The notes beneath the pieces are model-generated. The model saw nothing but the letters and a program-made list of their open reading frames with translations, had not been told where the DNA came from and ran no database searches. DNA of 64,000 nt, taken from Tepidanaerobacter acetatoxydans Re1 (GTDB lineage Bacteria; Bacillota; Thermosediminibacteria; Thermosediminibacterales; Tepidanaerobacteraceae). Shown piece after piece: positions 3,461 through 57,495 of this stretch. Both the position numbers and the translations under genes were made by a program. The stretch covers positions 1,120,501 through 1,184,500 of the forward strand of contig NC_019954.2 of assembly GCF_000328765.2 (NCBI RefSeq). The letters run 5' to 3'. Each line of letters starts with the position of its first letter. Position 1 is the stretch's first letter.

Positions 3461-4495
3461 ATAAAAAGAGCCACTTATAAAAGTGCCGGAGTGGATGTGG
3501 ATGCGGGTAATCGAGCAGTCGAGCTCATAAAAGACCATGTGCGTTCTACCTTCAGGCCAGGTGTGTTAGGAAATTTAGGAAGTTTTGGCGGCTTTTTTCA
3601 GCTTGACGTCAAGAAATATAAAGAACCTGTGCTGGTTTCCGGCACTGATGGAGTCGGTACAAAGCTCAAGATAGCTTTTATGATGGACAAGCACGATACG
3701 ATAGGTATCGATGGTGTAGCAATGTGTGTAAATGATATATTAGTTCACGGTGCGGAACCCTTATTTTTCCTGGATTACATTGCACTTGGAAAACTTGTTC
3801 CCGAAAAGGTTGCCGATATAGTTAAAGGTGTAGCTGATGGCTGTAAGATGGCCGGATGTGCACTTCTTGGCGGTGAAACAGCGGAGATGCCAGGAATGTA
3901 TGATGAAGATGAGTATGATATTGCAGGCTTTGCTGTGGGAGTTGTGGATAAAACTAAAATCATTGATGGTTCATCTATAAAAAAAGATGATGTTGTTATT
4001 GGAATTGCATCATCAGGTCTTCACAGCAATGGTTACTCCTTAGCAAGGAAAGTATTTTTTGAGTTGGGTGGGCTTTTGCCGGAAGATTATATTGAAGATT
4101 TTGGGGAAACGTTAGGAGAGGAACTATTAAAACCTACAAAAATATATTCAAAAGCGGTTAAATCTCTTGAAAATTTCGATATCCATGGCATGGCACATAT
4201 TACCGGTGGGGGATTGATAGAAAACCTACCGCGTATATTACCGGAGGGCATGGAGTTTATAATCAATAAGGGGTCTTGGGAAATTCCGCCGGTATTTCAC
4301 TTGATTCAAAAAATAGGGCAGATTGAAGATAAAGAAATGTATAGGACTTTTAATATGGGCATAGGGTATGTACTTGTTGCACCGAAAGAAAATGCCGATG
4401 CTATTTTAAATACTGTAAGAGAACAAGGAGAAAACGCTTGGATTATTGGACAGGTATCTATGGGGAAAGGCGGGGTGGTATTTTGCCAAAGCTGA
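3461..4495 (+). CDS. purM: Phosphoribosylformylglycinamidine cyclo-ligase PurM, probable ATA start
   Basis: ATP-dependent closure of FGAM to aminoimidazole ribonucleotide. The AIRS fold is clear: [10 protein letters not shown] near residue 53, [11 protein letters not shown], and GLHSNGYSL. The first canonical start codon (GTG 3491) would remove the conserved TYKSAGVD segment at the family N-terminus. Upstream of it the frame is open only back to a TGA at 3452 and contains no ATG, GTG or TTG. ATA at 3461 lies 9 bases after a GGATG Shine-Dalgarno core (AAAGGATGTGA, one mismatch from ideal) and gives 344 residues beginning KRATYKSAG, so I call it the start. The 3' end overlaps purN by 13 bases. 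Confidence 0.93.
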
Positions 4496-15582: not shown

Positions 15583-15909
15583 ATGATAGGAATGATAATT
15601 AGATTTATTGTATCTGCTTTGGTGCTTATGCTGATGAGCTTTATACTTCCCGGCTTTGAGGTGGCTGGCTTTACTGGAGCTCTGATTGCCGCAATAGTGA
15701 TTGCTATTTTAGGTTTTATAGTGGAAAGCCTTTTCGGAGATAAGGTTTCCCCACAAAGCAGAGGCATAGTAGGCTTCATCACTGCTGCAGTAGTTATATA
15801 TTTTGCGCAGTTTTTGGTGCCTGCTATGAGCGTAACTTGGTGGGGAGCGCTATTAACATCATTGGTTATAGGTGTGGTTGACGCATTTGTTCCAACTGAA
15901 CTTAGATAA
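15583..15909 (+). CDS. Small four-helix membrane protein, phage-holin-superfamily/YvlD-like
   Basis: 108 residues, almost wholly hydrophobic, with about four predicted membrane segments (around 3-22, 28-48, 62-80 and 86-102). It resembles the YvlD/DUF360 group that is often annotated as phage holin family. No phage genes are nearby, so a lytic role is not implied. ATG 15583 follows GGAGG. The gene ends directly at the ribosome-binding site of gpr, so the two are probably co-transcribed. A role in the envelope or forespore is an inference from position only. Confidence 0.75.
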   Translation: MIGMIIRFIVSALVLMLMSFILPGFEVAGFTGALIAAIVIAILGFIVESLFGDKVSPQSRGIVGFITAAVVIYFAQFLVPAMSVTWWGALLTSLVIGVVDAFVPTELR

Positions 15910-15919
15910 GGAGGTGATC
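15908..15919 (+). promoter_or_regulatory. Full-length Shine-Dalgarno of gpr
   Basis: The 12 bases AAGGAGGTGATC are perfectly complementary to the usual 3' end of bacterial 16S rRNA. They begin inside the stop codon of the preceding gene and precede a reading frame with no ATG, GTG or TTG at the expected place. Confidence 0.8.
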
Positions 15920-15924
15920 AGGTC

Positions 15925-16899
15925 ATAAGTATCAACATACGTACTGATCTTGCATTAGAAGCGCGAGAGCTTGCGGGAGAAGAAGAAATCCCGGGGGTTA
16001 CGGTGGATACCGAAAAATCTAAGCAAATGACTATAAGCAGGGTCAGAATAGAGGATGAAGAAGGCTCAGAGAAAATGGGTAAGCCCATAGGATATTATGT
16101 AACTTTAGAAGTGCCCAGATTAAAAGAAAAAGATTCGGCTCTTACGGAAGAAGTCAGTAAGAATTTAGCCGATGAGCTTAAGAGAATGGTTGAAATCCCC
16201 ATAGAAGCAACAGTACTTGTTATAGGTCTGGGTAATTGGAATGTTACGCCTGATTCCCTCGGCCCGAAGGTCATAGAAAAACTTATAGTTACAAGACATT
16301 TAATTGAATATATGCCTGAAAAATTCAATACAAAAGATGGCATACGACCCGTATGTGCGCTTGCCCCGGGAGTTTTAGGTATAACCGGCATAGAAACCGG
16401 AGATATAATCAGCGGCTTGGTGGAAAAAGTAAAGCCTGATATGATTATTGCTATAGACGCTTTAGCGTCAAGGAGTATGGAGCGCATAAGTACAACAATA
16501 CAAATTACGGATACTGGTGTTTATCCCGGATCCGGTGTTGGCAACAAACGCATGGGCATAACTCAGGAAAATATGGGCGTACCGGTGATTGCAATAGGTA
16601 TACCTACCGTAGTAGACGCTGCAACAATGGCTAATGACACCCTGGATATGCTTATCGGCCAGTTCACAAGACAGGCTAAACCAGGAAGCGATTTTTATAA
16701 GCTCTTGGAAACCCTTGATAAGGAGGAAAAATACAAGCTTATTCAGGAAGTTATGTCACCTTTTGTAGGACAGTTAGTAGTGACGCCAAAGGAAATTGAC
16801 TCCTTAATTGATAATACTGCTAAAACTCTTGCGGGAGGCTTAAATCTGGCCCTTCATCCAGGAATACAATATAATGAAGTCAGTACTTTTCTTCAATAA
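15925..16899 (+). CDS. gpr: Germination protease GPR, probable non-canonical (ATA) start
   Basis: Aspartic-type endopeptidase that degrades small acid-soluble spore proteins at germination; made as a zymogen in the forespore. The first canonical start (GTG 16003) would lose the propeptide segment INIRTDLALEARE that is conserved in GPRs. Upstream of it the frame is open to TAA 15907 and contains GTC 15922, ATA 15925 and ATC 15931, but no standard start. ATA 15925 gives 324 residues, and the perfect ribosome site at 15908 supports initiation here. VIGLGNWNVTPDSLGP near residue 95, LAPGVLGITGIET and NTTIQITDTGVYPGSGVGNKR-type blocks are intact. A terminator overlaps the stop. Confidence 0.93.
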   Translation: MSINIRTDLALEARELAGEEEIPGVTVDTEKSKQMTISRVRIEDEEGSEKMGKPIGYYVTLEVPRLKEKDSALTEEVSKNLADELKRMVEIPIEATVLVIGLGNWNVTPDSLGPKVIEKLIVTRHLIEYMPEKFNTKDGIRPVCALAPGVLGITGIETGDIISGLVEKVKPDMIIAIDALASRSMERISTTIQITDTGVYPGSGVGNKRMGITQENMGVPVIAIGIPTVVDAATMANDTLDMLIGQFTRQAKPGSDFYKLLETLDKEEKYKLIQEVMSPFVGQLVVTPKEIDSLIDNTAKTLAGGLNLALHPGIQYNEVSTFLQ

Positions 16900-42457: not shown

Positions 42458-42665
42458 TAAGATATTACAATCCCAGATAAAATATAGGATTTATTTAAAA
42501 AATATACTTTTATTGAGAGTTTTTATAAGTTTATTTTTTGGCTGCGGTAATTGACAGTAATACCGTATCTAATGAAATTCTTTAGTAAAAAAAGAGGATT
42601 TTTTTATGTTTTGTAGTATAATAATATTTGGCAATTTGCAGCCTGTTCGAAGGGAGTGAAAACCC

Positions 42666-43298
42666 ATAGAATTATCATCAAGGCAGGCTTTAATAGTTGA
42701 TATAGTCAAGAAATACGAACCAATTACCAGCGAACAAATAGCGGACAAACTCAATTTAACTCGGTCAGCACTAAGACCTGATCTTGCAGTTTTGACCATG
42801 CTTGGTATTTTAGAAGCCAGACCTAGGGTGGGATACTTTTTTGCAGGGAAAGATCCTAAAAATCTCATATCAGAAAAAATGAATGATATAAAAGTCGATA
42901 AGATAAAGTCAGTTCCGTCGGTCATAAAGGAAGATACTTCCGTATATGATGCTATAGTAACTTTATTTTTGACAGATGTGGGAACCCTTTTCATCACTGA
43001 CAAAGATGGTAATTTAGCAGGGCTGGTATCTCGTAAGGATTTGCTAAAAACAGCTATCGGAAATGCAGATATACATAAAATGCCGATAGGTATCGTAATG
43101 ACCAGAATGCCAAACATAATTACAGTAACACCTGAAGAAAGTGCTTATGATGCTGCAAGAAAAATCGTCGATCATCAAATTGATGCGTTACCGGTAGTGA
43201 AAGCTGTAACAGAAAATGACCAGGAAAAATATAAGATAGTTGGGAAAGTAACTAAGACTACAATTACGAAACTTTTTGTTGAACTTGGAAAGACTTAG
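42666..43298 (+). CDS. CcpN-type HTH/CBS-domain repressor, probable ATA start
   Basis: Transcriptional regulator with an N-terminal winged helix (EPITSEQIADKLNLTRSAL-type, about 18-36, then DLAVLTMLGILEARPRVGYF) and two CBS domains (about 72-205). Resembles Bacillus CcpN/YqzB, a repressor of gluconeogenic genes that senses nucleotides. The first usable standard start (TTG 42789) would cut off the DNA-binding domain. The frame is open only to TGA 42657, leaving ATA 42666, nine bases after GGGAG, as the only good start. That gives 210 residues beginning ELSSRQ. It lies upstream of the PPDK regulator and ppdK, its likely regulon. Confidence 0.9.
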   Translation: MELSSRQALIVDIVKKYEPITSEQIADKLNLTRSALRPDLAVLTMLGILEARPRVGYFFAGKDPKNLISEKMNDIKVDKIKSVPSVIKEDTSVYDAIVTLFLTDVGTLFITDKDGNLAGLVSRKDLLKTAIGNADIHKMPIGIVMTRMPNIITVTPEESAYDAARKIVDHQIDALPVVKAVTENDQEKYKIVGKVTKTTITKLFVELGKT

Positions 43299-43314
43299 AA
43301 AGGAGGGGATGATT

Positions 43315-44139
43315 ATAAAAGATAAAAAAAGCCAGCCGGTAGTGTTTGCAGTTTCCGATTCTATTGGTGAAACTGCCGAATTAGTAATTCGTGCGGCGAT
43401 GGTTCAATTTAATTCCGATAAAGTTGATATTCGCAAAGTTCCCTATGTAACTGACAATGAGTATGTGGAAGATATCATAGAGGAAGCTAAAAATACAGCT
43501 GATTGTGTTATTGTATGCACAATTATTTTACCGGAAGTCAGACAGCACCTTTTAAGTCTGGCGGAGCAAAATCAGATACCTATAGTAGATTTAATGGGGC
43601 CGATGATGGATACTTTTTCAAAGATAATTGAAGTTAAACCGCATTTACAGCCGGGTTTAGTCCATCGAATAGATGAGGATTATTTCAAAAAAATAGAAGC
43701 AATAGAGTTTGCGGTTCAGTATGATGATGGCAAGGATCCCAGAGGCTTATCTCGGGCAGATGTTGTTCTCATAGGTGTTTCAAGAACTTCTAAAACTCCC
43801 CTGGCAATGTTTTTGGCTCATAAGAGATTAAAGGTTGCAAATCTCCGTTTGGTACCGGAGGTTGCTCCCCCAGATGAATTATTTCACCTTCCGCCAAAGA
43901 CAATTATCGGTCTTACTATAAGCCCTGAAAAGCTGTTTGATATCAGGCAGGAAAGACTTAAAGCCTTAGGTCTTAGCACAGAAGCAACTTATGCTCAACT
44001 TAGCAGAATTATGGAAGAAATCGAATATGCTGACATGATAATGGAAAAAATTGGTTGTCCTAAAATTGATGTTTCAAATAAAGCAGTGGAGGAAATAGCC
44101 ACTAGCATTTTAGAGATAATAAGGAAAGGGGAAGTATAA
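43315..44139 (+). CDS. Pyruvate, phosphate dikinase regulatory protein (PPSR/YqfL family)
   Basis: Bifunctional Ser/Thr kinase and Pi-dependent phosphorylase controlling PPDK or PEP synthase by phosphorylating a threonine near its catalytic histidine. About 274 residues. VSDSIGETAELV lies near residue 13, the P-loop-like GVSRTSKTPLAMFLA near 150, and EIEYADMIMEKIGCPKIDVS near the end. The start is unclear: ATG 43309 is only 2 bases from GGAGG, while ATA 43315 is 8 bases away and gives the usual short N-terminus. It sits directly before its presumed target ppdK. Confidence 0.92.
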   Translation: MKDKKSQPVVFAVSDSIGETAELVIRAAMVQFNSDKVDIRKVPYVTDNEYVEDIIEEAKNTADCVIVCTIILPEVRQHLLSLAEQNQIPIVDLMGPMMDTFSKIIEVKPHLQPGLVHRIDEDYFKKIEAIEFAVQYDDGKDPRGLSRADVVLIGVSRTSKTPLAMFLAHKRLKVANLRLVPEVAPPDELFHLPPKTIIGLTISPEKLFDIRQERLKALGLSTEATYAQLSRIMEEIEYADMIMEKIGCPKIDVSNKAVEEIATSILEIIRKGEV

Positions 44140-44140
44140 T

Positions 44141-46780
44141 ATGACAAAAAAATATGTATACAGTTTTCGCGAAGGCAATGCTCAAATGCGCAACTTGCTA
44201 GGAGGTAAAGGTGCAAATCTGGCAGAAATGGTTAAGATAGGCTTGCCTGTACCGATGGGTTTTACCATCACAACCGAAGCCTGCCTGAACTATTATGAAG
44301 AAGGTGAAAAGATATCCGAAGATATCTTATCTCAAATTTTCCAAGCTTTAGATGATCTCGAAAAAGAAATGGGCAAGAAACTCGGAGATAATGAAGATCC
44401 GTTGTTAGTATCAGTTAGGTCAGGAGCAGTTATTTCTATGCCGGGTATGATGGATACAATACTGAACCTGGGCCTAAACGATGAAAGCGTTAAGGGATTG
44501 GCGGCAAAAACAGGGAATGAACGTTTTGCCTATGACAGCTATCGAAGATTTATCCAGATGTTTGGCGATGTAGTTATGGAAGTTGAGCATGATAAATTTG
44601 AATCCATCATAAATGAGGTAAAGCAGAAAAAAGGTATCACCCAAGACACTGAAATGGATGCAGATGGCTGGAAAGAGGTTATAGAGCTTTATAAGGAAAA
44701 AATAAAGGACGAGACAGGCCGAAAGTTTCCGCAAGATCCCAAGGAACAGCTTTTAATGGCCGTAGAAGCAGTTTTTAAGTCTTGGAACAATCAGAGAGCC
44801 AAGGTTTACAGGAGAATAAATAAAATCCCCGATGATTTAGGAACGGCTGTTAACGTTCAGACTATGGTTTTTGGAAACAAAGGCGATGATTCAGGAACCG
44901 GTGTTGCCTTTACCAGAAATCCTTCAACCGGAGAAAAAGAAGTTTACGGCGAATTTTTAATGAATGCACAAGGTGAAGATGTTGTGGCTGGTATCAGGAC
45001 GCCACAGAGCATAAAACAGCTAAAAGATATCATGCCAGATGTATATGAGCAATTTATAAATGTATGCAAGTTGTTAGAGAAGCATTATAGAGATATGCAG
45101 GATATAGAATTTACAATAGAAAACGGGAAGCTTTTTATGCTCCAGACGCGCAGCGGTAAGCGGACGGCTCAGGCTGCTGTAAAAATTGCCGTAGATATGG
45201 TTAAAGAGGGCTTGATAAATAAGGATGAAGCGATTCTTCGTGTGCCGGCGGGTCAGGTAGAGACCCTACTCCACCGCAGAATCGACCCGAATGCTGATGT
45301 TAAGCCTATAGCAAAGGGGTTGCCAGCATCTCCAGGAGCAGCTTCGGGACATGTGGTTTTTGACCCAGATGAGGCAGAGGCCATGGGCAATGAAGGTCAG
45401 AGAGTAATTTTGGTTAGGACGGAAACCACTCCTGATGATATTCATGGTATTGTTGCAGCTCAAGGAGTGCTTACAAGCCGCGGTGGCATGACAAGTCATG
45501 CTGCTGTTGTAGCTCGCGGTATGGGAAAACCTTGTGTATCCGGATGTGAAGCCGTAAAAATTGACTATGAAAAAGGCGAGTTTACAGTTGGACAGCTTGT
45601 AGTCAAAAAAGGTGATGTAATTTCCATTGATGGATCTACAGGAGAAGTTATGATTGGCGAAGTTCCCATGATTGATCCGGAACTTTCCGATGAATTTAAT
45701 AAAATATTGAGTTGGGCTGATGAAATACGAAAGCTAAAAGTTAGGGCAAATGCTGATACACCTCATGATGCTAAAGTAGCTTTAGAATTCGGTGCAGAGG
45801 GTATAGGGCTTTGCAGAACCGAGCATATGTTTATGGCGCAGGATCGGCTGCCAATAGTTCAGCAAATGATTATGGCAGAAACCAAAGAAGAAAGAGAAGA
45901 AGCCCTGGCTAAACTTTTGCCTATACAGCAGGAAGACTTTGAGGGAATTTTTGAAGTAATGGAAGGATTGCCTGTTACCGTAAGGTTGCTAGATCCGCCT
46001 CTTCACGAATTCTTACCTAATCCCGAAGAACTTATTGTAGAAATAATGGAACTTAAAGCAAAGGGTTGTTCAAAAGAACTACAAGCAAAACAAGAAATGC
46101 TTAAAAAAGTGCGAGCCCTCAGAGAAATGAATCCGATGTTGGGTCTTAGAGGTTGCAGACTAGGTCTATTATATCCAGAAATTTATGTTATGCAGGTGAA
46201 AGCCATACTAAAAGCAGCATGCAATCTAACTAAAAAAGGTATTAAGGTCATACCTGAAATCGAAATACCATTGGTTAATCATGAATTAGAGCTTAAGACT
46301 CTAAGAGAAATCGTAGAAAAGACTGCGGAGGAAGTATTTGAAGAAGAAGGAACAAAGGTACATTACTTTATCGGAACAATGATTGAACTTCCAAGGGCAT
46401 GTCTGACCGCTGAAGAAATTGCTAATTTTGCAGATTTCTTCTCATTTGGAACAAATGACCTGACACAGACAACTTTTGGATTCAGCCGTGATGATGCAGA
46501 AGGCAAGATACTTCCACATTATGTGGAACAAAAAATACTTTCAGATTCTCCCTTTATTGTTCTTGATAGAAAAGGTGTTGGTTCATTGATGAAGATGGCT
46601 ACGGATAAAGGCAGAAGTGTGAAGCCGGATCTTTTAATAGGTATTTGTGGTGAGCACGGCGGAGAACCAAGTTCCGTTGAATTTTGTCATATGATTGGCC
46701 TTGATTTCGTCAGCTGTTCACCGTTTAGAGTGCCAATCGCAAGGCTTGCAGCCGCCCAGGCAAAAATAAATCATAAATAG
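44141..46780 (+). CDS. ppdK: Pyruvate, phosphate dikinase
   Basis: Interconverts pyruvate, ATP and Pi with PEP, AMP and PPi, a central step in anaerobic glycolysis and gluconeogenesis. 879 residues, full family length. The N-terminal ATP-grasp domain (GGKGANLAEM near 21) is followed by the swivelling phosphohistidine domain with GGMTSHAAVVARGMGKPC (about 448-465; the histidine is catalytic, and the adjacent Thr/Ser is the regulatory site). The C-terminal PEP-binding TIM barrel has GTNDLTQ near 769 and a GICGEHGG block near 830. Regulated by the two upstream genes. Confidence 0.97.
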   Translation: MTKKYVYSFREGNAQMRNLLGGKGANLAEMVKIGLPVPMGFTITTEACLNYYEEGEKISEDILSQIFQALDDLEKEMGKKLGDNEDPLLVSVRSGAVISMPGMMDTILNLGLNDESVKGLAAKTGNERFAYDSYRRFIQMFGDVVMEVEHDKFESIINEVKQKKGITQDTEMDADGWKEVIELYKEKIKDETGRKFPQDPKEQLLMAVEAVFKSWNNQRAKVYRRINKIPDDLGTAVNVQTMVFGNKGDDSGTGVAFTRNPSTGEKEVYGEFLMNAQGEDVVAGIRTPQSIKQLKDIMPDVYEQFINVCKLLEKHYRDMQDIEFTIENGKLFMLQTRSGKRTAQAAVKIAVDMVKEGLINKDEAILRVPAGQVETLLHRRIDPNADVKPIAKGLPASPGAASGHVVFDPDEAEAMGNEGQRVILVRTETTPDDIHGIVAAQGVLTSRGGMTSHAAVVARGMGKPCVSGCEAVKIDYEKGEFTVGQLVVKKGDVISIDGSTGEVMIGEVPMIDPELSDEFNKILSWADEIRKLKVRANADTPHDAKVALEFGAEGIGLCRTEHMFMAQDRLPIVQQMIMAETKEEREEALAKLLPIQQEDFEGIFEVMEGLPVTVRLLDPPLHEFLPNPEELIVEIMELKAKGCSKELQAKQEMLKKVRALREMNPMLGLRGCRLGLLYPEIYVMQVKAILKAACNLTKKGIKVIPEIEIPLVNHELELKTLREIVEKTAEEVFEEEGTKVHYFIGTMIELPRACLTAEEIANFADFFSFGTNDLTQTTFGFSRDDAEGKILPHYVEQKILSDSPFIVLDRKGVGSLMKMATDKGRSVKPDLLIGICGEHGGEPSSVEFCHMIGLDFVSCSPFRVPIARLAAAQAKINHK

Positions 46781-57418: not shown

Positions 57419-57495
57419 TGGTCGGGGCGGCGGGATTTGAACCCACGGCCTTTCGGACCCGAACCGAACGCGCTACCAAACTGCGCTACGCCCCG
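57419..57495 (-). tRNA. tRNA-Pro (anticodon CGG)
   Basis: 77 bases on the minus strand with a complete cloverleaf. Acceptor stem CGGGGCG/CGCCCCG, anticodon stem TTCGG/CCGAA enclosing loop TTCGGGT (anticodon CGG, G37), T arm GTGGG/CCCGC with loop TTTGAAT, and encoded CCA at 57419-57421. It decodes CCG. Confidence 0.96.

Follow-up and report, generated by a model that had tools for sequence, protein, structure and literature searches.

An AUA-type start codon of ccpN conserved in Tepidanaerobacter acetatoxydans Re1 and its relatives, and its probable selection for weak initiation

Reading frame and start codon of ccpN

The ccpN locus of Tepidanaerobacter acetatoxydans Re1 raises two questions: whether a complete CcpN-family repressor can be made there only by starting at an AUA codon and, if so, why such a weak codon has been kept. 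In the window (the whole stretch of 64,000 nucleotides analysed, to whose first letter the coordinates below refer unless noted otherwise), ccpN occupies 42666..43298 on the forward strand and comprises 210 codons and a stop codon. The frame is open from just past TGA 42657-42659, which directly follows the Shine-Dalgarno (SD) sequence AAGGGAG (42650..42656, +), to the stop codon TAG 43296-43298. A spacer of 9 nt separates GGGAG (42652-42656) from ATA 42666-42668, the stretch reading AAGGGAGTGAAAACCCATA, and the translation from this ATA begins IELSSRQALIVDIVKK. The preliminary description of this DNA had reported both the closing TGA and the spacing as they are found here, and had placed the first canonical in-frame codons at TTG 42789 and ATG 42792. 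The codons concerned are in fact TTG 42792 and ATG 42798; no ATG, GTG, or TTG occurs before codon 43, and ATA 42666 is the sole possible start ahead of the helix-turn-helix domain. No canonical codon of the frame can yield the complete protein.

The protein read from ATA 42666 scored 318.4 bits against the NCBIfam model NF053704 (cut-off, 260), covering model positions 1-207 of 208. Pfam detected HTH_11, the DNA-binding domain, at the N-terminus (residues 6-57; 42681..42836, +) together with CBS domains, and a gene for a PPDK/PpsR-type regulator, ppsR, lies directly 3' of ccpN, as is expected of the CcpN family. When the protein was read from TTG 42792, the score dropped to 245.3 bits, under the cut-off, and HTH_11 was gone, most of this domain being encoded 5' of that codon, as had been pointed out before. 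Gene callers limited to ATG, GTG, and TTG would therefore output a CcpN without its DNA-binding domain, a truncation that the preliminary description had foreseen.

The aligned start codon was inspected in a first set of 30 genomes, consisting of the window's genome and 29 relatives, with congeners at one end and members of other families of the phylum at the other. ATA, ATT, or ATC (AUH in the mRNA), preceded by an SD-like sequence, was found at this position in all 30. Many of these genomes have an in-frame stop codon 1, 2, or 3 codons 5' of the AUH codon, and in one of them TAG abuts ATA. A single genome could hold a sequencing error or a frameshift, with an ordinary start upstream and an artefactual stop or ATA, but AUH at this codon, its distance from the SD, and nearby upstream stops are found again in independent assemblies from many families, which makes such an error scarcely credible.

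The real start might also be TTG 42792 or ATG 42798, the earliest codons acceptable to a conventional gene caller, with the HTH-coding stretch as an untranslated remnant. Comparison of codons 2-42 between this genome and seven relatives gave pS/pN values of 5-33, with 7-26.5 synonymous differences over about 29 sites versus 0-16 nonsynonymous differences over about 94 sites; in one example relative, the numbers of differences were 21 and 2, respectively. Residues R6, Q7, I10, R33, and L36-L40 are among those that are invariant within the supposed remnant. The purifying selection on codons 2-42 leads us to conclude that translation covers the stretch ahead of the first canonical codon. This selection, the invariant residues, and the conserved site of AUH and SD make a start at TTG 42792 or ATG 42798 highly improbable.

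Start codons of ccpN across relatives

The set was enlarged by pooling 80 named genomes with the first 30 and removing duplicates, which left 102 distinct genomes; the 80 named genomes were the closest matches to the query, so the sampling was non-random. The start codon of ccpN was ATA in 37 genomes, ATC in 28, ATT in 17, TTG in 9, GTG in 7, and ATG in 4, that is, AUH in 82, UUG or GUG in 16, and AUG in 4. An AUH codon behind a strong SD at normal spacing has accordingly been kept for long at this gene (30/30 and 82/102), which, along with the selection on codons 2-42, agrees with the earlier proposal that ccpN of the window must start at ATA. On a protein tree, the AUH state required 6 changes (shuffled mean, 18.6), and the four AUG rows were separate isolated tips. 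The third base among the AUH rows changed at least 18 times, between A, T, and C.

The putative pyruvate, phosphate dikinase gene ppdK (44141..46780, +), named from the start of its sequence and its adjacency to its regulator, has a canonical ATG and served as a control at the same loci. An SD-backed canonical start was present in 65 of 76 ppdK homologs, 55 of them with ATG, and none of the 76 lacked a canonical codon near the start. The start codons of ccpN and ppdK differed with a Fisher p of about 1e-23, a value that is only indicative because of the relatedness of the rows and the choice of the 80 genomes as best query matches. Another control, recO, was dropped, since its assumed start in the window is probably wrong.

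Whichever of AUH, UUG, GUG, and AUG serves as the start, the protein begins with fMet. The third base is thus unconstrained by the protein sequence and yet is almost never G, which argues for selection against strong initiation at ccpN. The way in which AUG is avoided suggests that weak initiation has been selected for, and a weak AUH start fits a way of keeping the repressor level low. Such a start is evidently not essential everywhere, because about a fifth of the ccpN homologs use UUG, GUG, or AUG. No RNA structure masking the ccpN start was found (fold z -0.31), and no consensus promoter was found immediately 5' of the gene.

Other AUH starts and the stringency of initiation

The neighbouring gene ppsR encodes the PPDK/PEP synthase regulatory kinase-phosphorylase (43315..44139, +; NF003742, 317 bits; PF03618) and is preceded by the SD sequence AAGGAGG (43300..43306, +). 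Its start region (43300-43317) contains ATG 43309, ATT 43312, and ATA 43315 at 2, 5, and 8 nt from GGAGG. Conventional annotation would be expected to choose ATG 43309. Judging from the sequence comparison, ATA 43315 is the likeliest start, and ATT 43312 is possible. ATA recurs at the matching place in relatives, often without any canonical alternative. The gene was found beside ccpN in 91 of the 102 loci; 39 of these 91 genomes have an SD-backed AUH and lack an SD-backed canonical start, and in 18 of the 39 the start region is devoid of any canonical codon. By this comparison, ppsR probably has an AUH start like ccpN, a case that the preliminary description had missed. No published AUH start for ppsR was found in a literature search covering few subscription journals.

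Forced ATA starts had also been claimed for gpr and purM, and the starts of the relatives bear this out. The germination protease gene gpr (15925..16899, +; TIGR01441, 423 bits) follows a full SD sequence, AAGGAGGTGAT (15908..15918, +). In all 20 genomes examined from the same order, including the window's and representing both families of the order, ATA, ATT, or ATC stands at SD distance; one of the 20 genes has an additional TTG at 3 nt from the SD, and several relatives of the same class start gpr with TTG. For purM (3461..4495, +; TIGR00878), ATA is found in the genus (three genomes), whereas this very codon is ATG in three further genomes from the same family, so that ATA is a recent replacement here. 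Elsewhere in the genome, a methenyl-THF cyclohydrolase gene resembling fchA (G000:C1:851577; L257 11577) has ATA where most relatives of the same order have ATG. It resembles purM as an AUH start, and a GTG two codons downstream is a possible start.

Also outside the window, a Trk-type potassium-uptake gene (trk) lies 3' of infC (G000:C1 about 728940-730330; L031, about 2586 onwards) and has a GGAGGCG-like sequence before its start. This start is ATC, ATT, or ATA in the 12 alignable loci of the same order, which include the window's genome and cover both families, and in most of the 12 loci no canonical codon is preceded by a strong SD at a suitable distance. The gene infC of this genome has its usual AUU start at a spacing of 8 nt, and ATT, ATC, or ATA was found at the infC start in 31/31 genomes by the method used for ccpN. 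Two identical initiator tRNA genes are present, both of ordinary type and with GGG/CCC anticodon stems. The preliminary description had proposed infC and the initiator tRNA as places to look for altered stringency, and both turned out to be normal. A tRNA-Pro (CGG) gene was noticed in the window at 57419-57495 (-).

The preliminary description had further supposed an excess of ATA starts throughout the genome. This was not borne out by an SD-based scan of about 783 kb of this genome for AUH after an SD in open reading frames without an SD-backed canonical start, which gave 12 AUH cases versus 11 for AGH, 11 for TTH, and 9 and 9 for the other control groups, with high noise. Scans of this kind were too noisy to single out AUH starts, and ccpN itself was lost at a run threshold of 5. 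Reciprocal orthologs shared with a congener formed 228 pairs, in 164 of which both members have a canonical start backed by an SD. Pairwise scans found three AUH genes in 119 pairs (ccpN, ppsR, and trk) against another family of the order, and ccpN only in 80 pairs against another family of the class. These scans bound the number of AUH genes only loosely, because infC and gpr escaped the comparison with the genome G013.

These results bear on the idea that the lineage has a generally relaxed start code, owing to an altered IF3 or initiator tRNA, so that ATA would be common and devoid of regulatory meaning. That a single genome has a number of AUH starts (infC, ccpN, ppsR, gpr, purM, trk, and perhaps fchA) and that ATA has replaced ATG in purM within the genus would accord with such a code. 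On the other hand, most ortholog pairs have kept SD-backed canonical starts, AUH did not rise above the control codons in the SD-based scan, and the initiator tRNA genes look normal. In addition, the AUH starts of ccpN and infC are kept in many unrelated families and are thus independent of this lineage. A generally relaxed code is therefore rather improbable, and gene-specific weak starts are the best account of the data.

Proposed mechanism, known systems, and further candidates

We consider it likely, from the comparisons above, that translation of ccpN truly begins at ATA 42666, that selection holds it weak, and that CcpN output is kept low through IF3. The strong SD would recruit the 30S subunit to the ccpN start, where the initiator fMet-tRNA would initiate on AUA despite the third-base mismatch. 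IF3, discriminating against AUA-type codons, would make the rate of CcpN synthesis low and dependent on initiation stringency and growth state, and CcpN output would rise with growth state. Selection would retain the weak codon: A, T, and C replace one another at the third base, but G almost never appears there. Since the PPDK regulator gene ppsR probably starts in the same way, two regulators of the pyruvate/PEP step may share this brake. By analogy with infC and sigR, we infer that ccpN depends on IF3 in this organism, and the metabolic logic of its weak start would be of the kind just outlined.

The weak AUA start of ccpN is already known from Staphylococcus aureus, for which a published report (Nat Commun February 2026, PMC13009471) describes identification by ribosome profiling (Ribo-Ret) and conservation of the ccpN start with B. 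subtilis. That gene belongs to the same family and likewise has a non-canonical start heading the HTH domain behind a strong SD; profiling and reporters were used there, whereas the present case rests on comparison. What is added here is the breadth over Clostridia and further Bacilli, the quantified rarity of AUG, and the probable AUH start of ppsR together with further candidate genes. The weak AUA start of ccpN is no staphylococcal oddity, AUG being almost absent from the roughly 100 Firmicutes genomes sampled, and selection for inefficient initiation at ccpN thereby becomes testable.

Other genes offer partial parallels. Like ccpN, infC has a conserved AUH codon after a strong SD, but it encodes the discriminating factor itself and so forms a feedback loop, whereas ccpN would be a target gene. 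In Streptomyces, the GTC start of sigR is repressed by IF3, as is infC (PMC5472188). The gene sigR also encodes a transcription regulator whose level is held down by a conserved non-canonical start, accompanied by an extensive ribosome-binding site; it differs in having GTC or GTT rather than AUH, in encoding a sigma factor, and in that the IF3 effect was shown in Streptomyces. An inefficient AUH start, AUU, also limits translation of E. coli pcnB (Binns and Masters 2002, as cited in PMC13009471), although this is a poly(A) polymerase gene of unrelated function.

A real AUH start might merely fix a low level of expression, with no regulation by IF3 or growth. Weak starts do lower expression, and in S. 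aureus the AUU start of cvfC1 showed no medium effect, according to PMC13009471. In contrast, luciferase output from the AUA start of S. aureus ccpN was about 10% of that from AUG when the medium was poor and up to 30% when it was rich, an effect for which the authors state that a clear mechanism is lacking (PMC13009471). The repression of the non-canonical starts of infC and sigR by IF3 (PMC5472188) also speaks against a simply fixed level, which we regard as possible but doubtful.

The reach of the AUH starts differs from gene to gene: those of infC and ccpN extend far beyond the order, that of ppsR is wide, those of gpr and trk span the order, and that of purM is confined to the genus. The genes ppsR, gpr, and trk can be added as candidates to the few bacterial genes known to have a conserved non-canonical start. 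In the order of Tepidanaerobacter and Thermosediminibacter, infC, ccpN, ppsR, gpr, and trk, with purM and perhaps fchA in the genus, could conceivably form an initiation-stringency regulon, an idea that we put forward as speculative and, on balance, unlikely. If it were true, a single shift affecting the activity of IF3 or the formylated initiator tRNA would move pyruvate/PEP metabolism, potassium uptake, and the spore germination protease together.

Several other frames were considered as AUH cases and rejected: in a clpX-like frame an ATG with an SD follows 12 codons later, a ROK-like frame has an upstream ATG with an SD, and some conserved frames resemble rRNA regions. Separately, a murA-like frame outside the window (G000:C1:1193874; L102) has a strong SD, AAGGAGGT, before ATT, and an ATG eight codons later is without a good SD. 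In a congener (G001:C5; L127-L131, L261-L278), a hisC-like frame (ATT) and another frame (ATA/ATT), on the reverse strand at 130765 and 375820, have AAGGAGG before AUH and lack an SD-backed canonical start.
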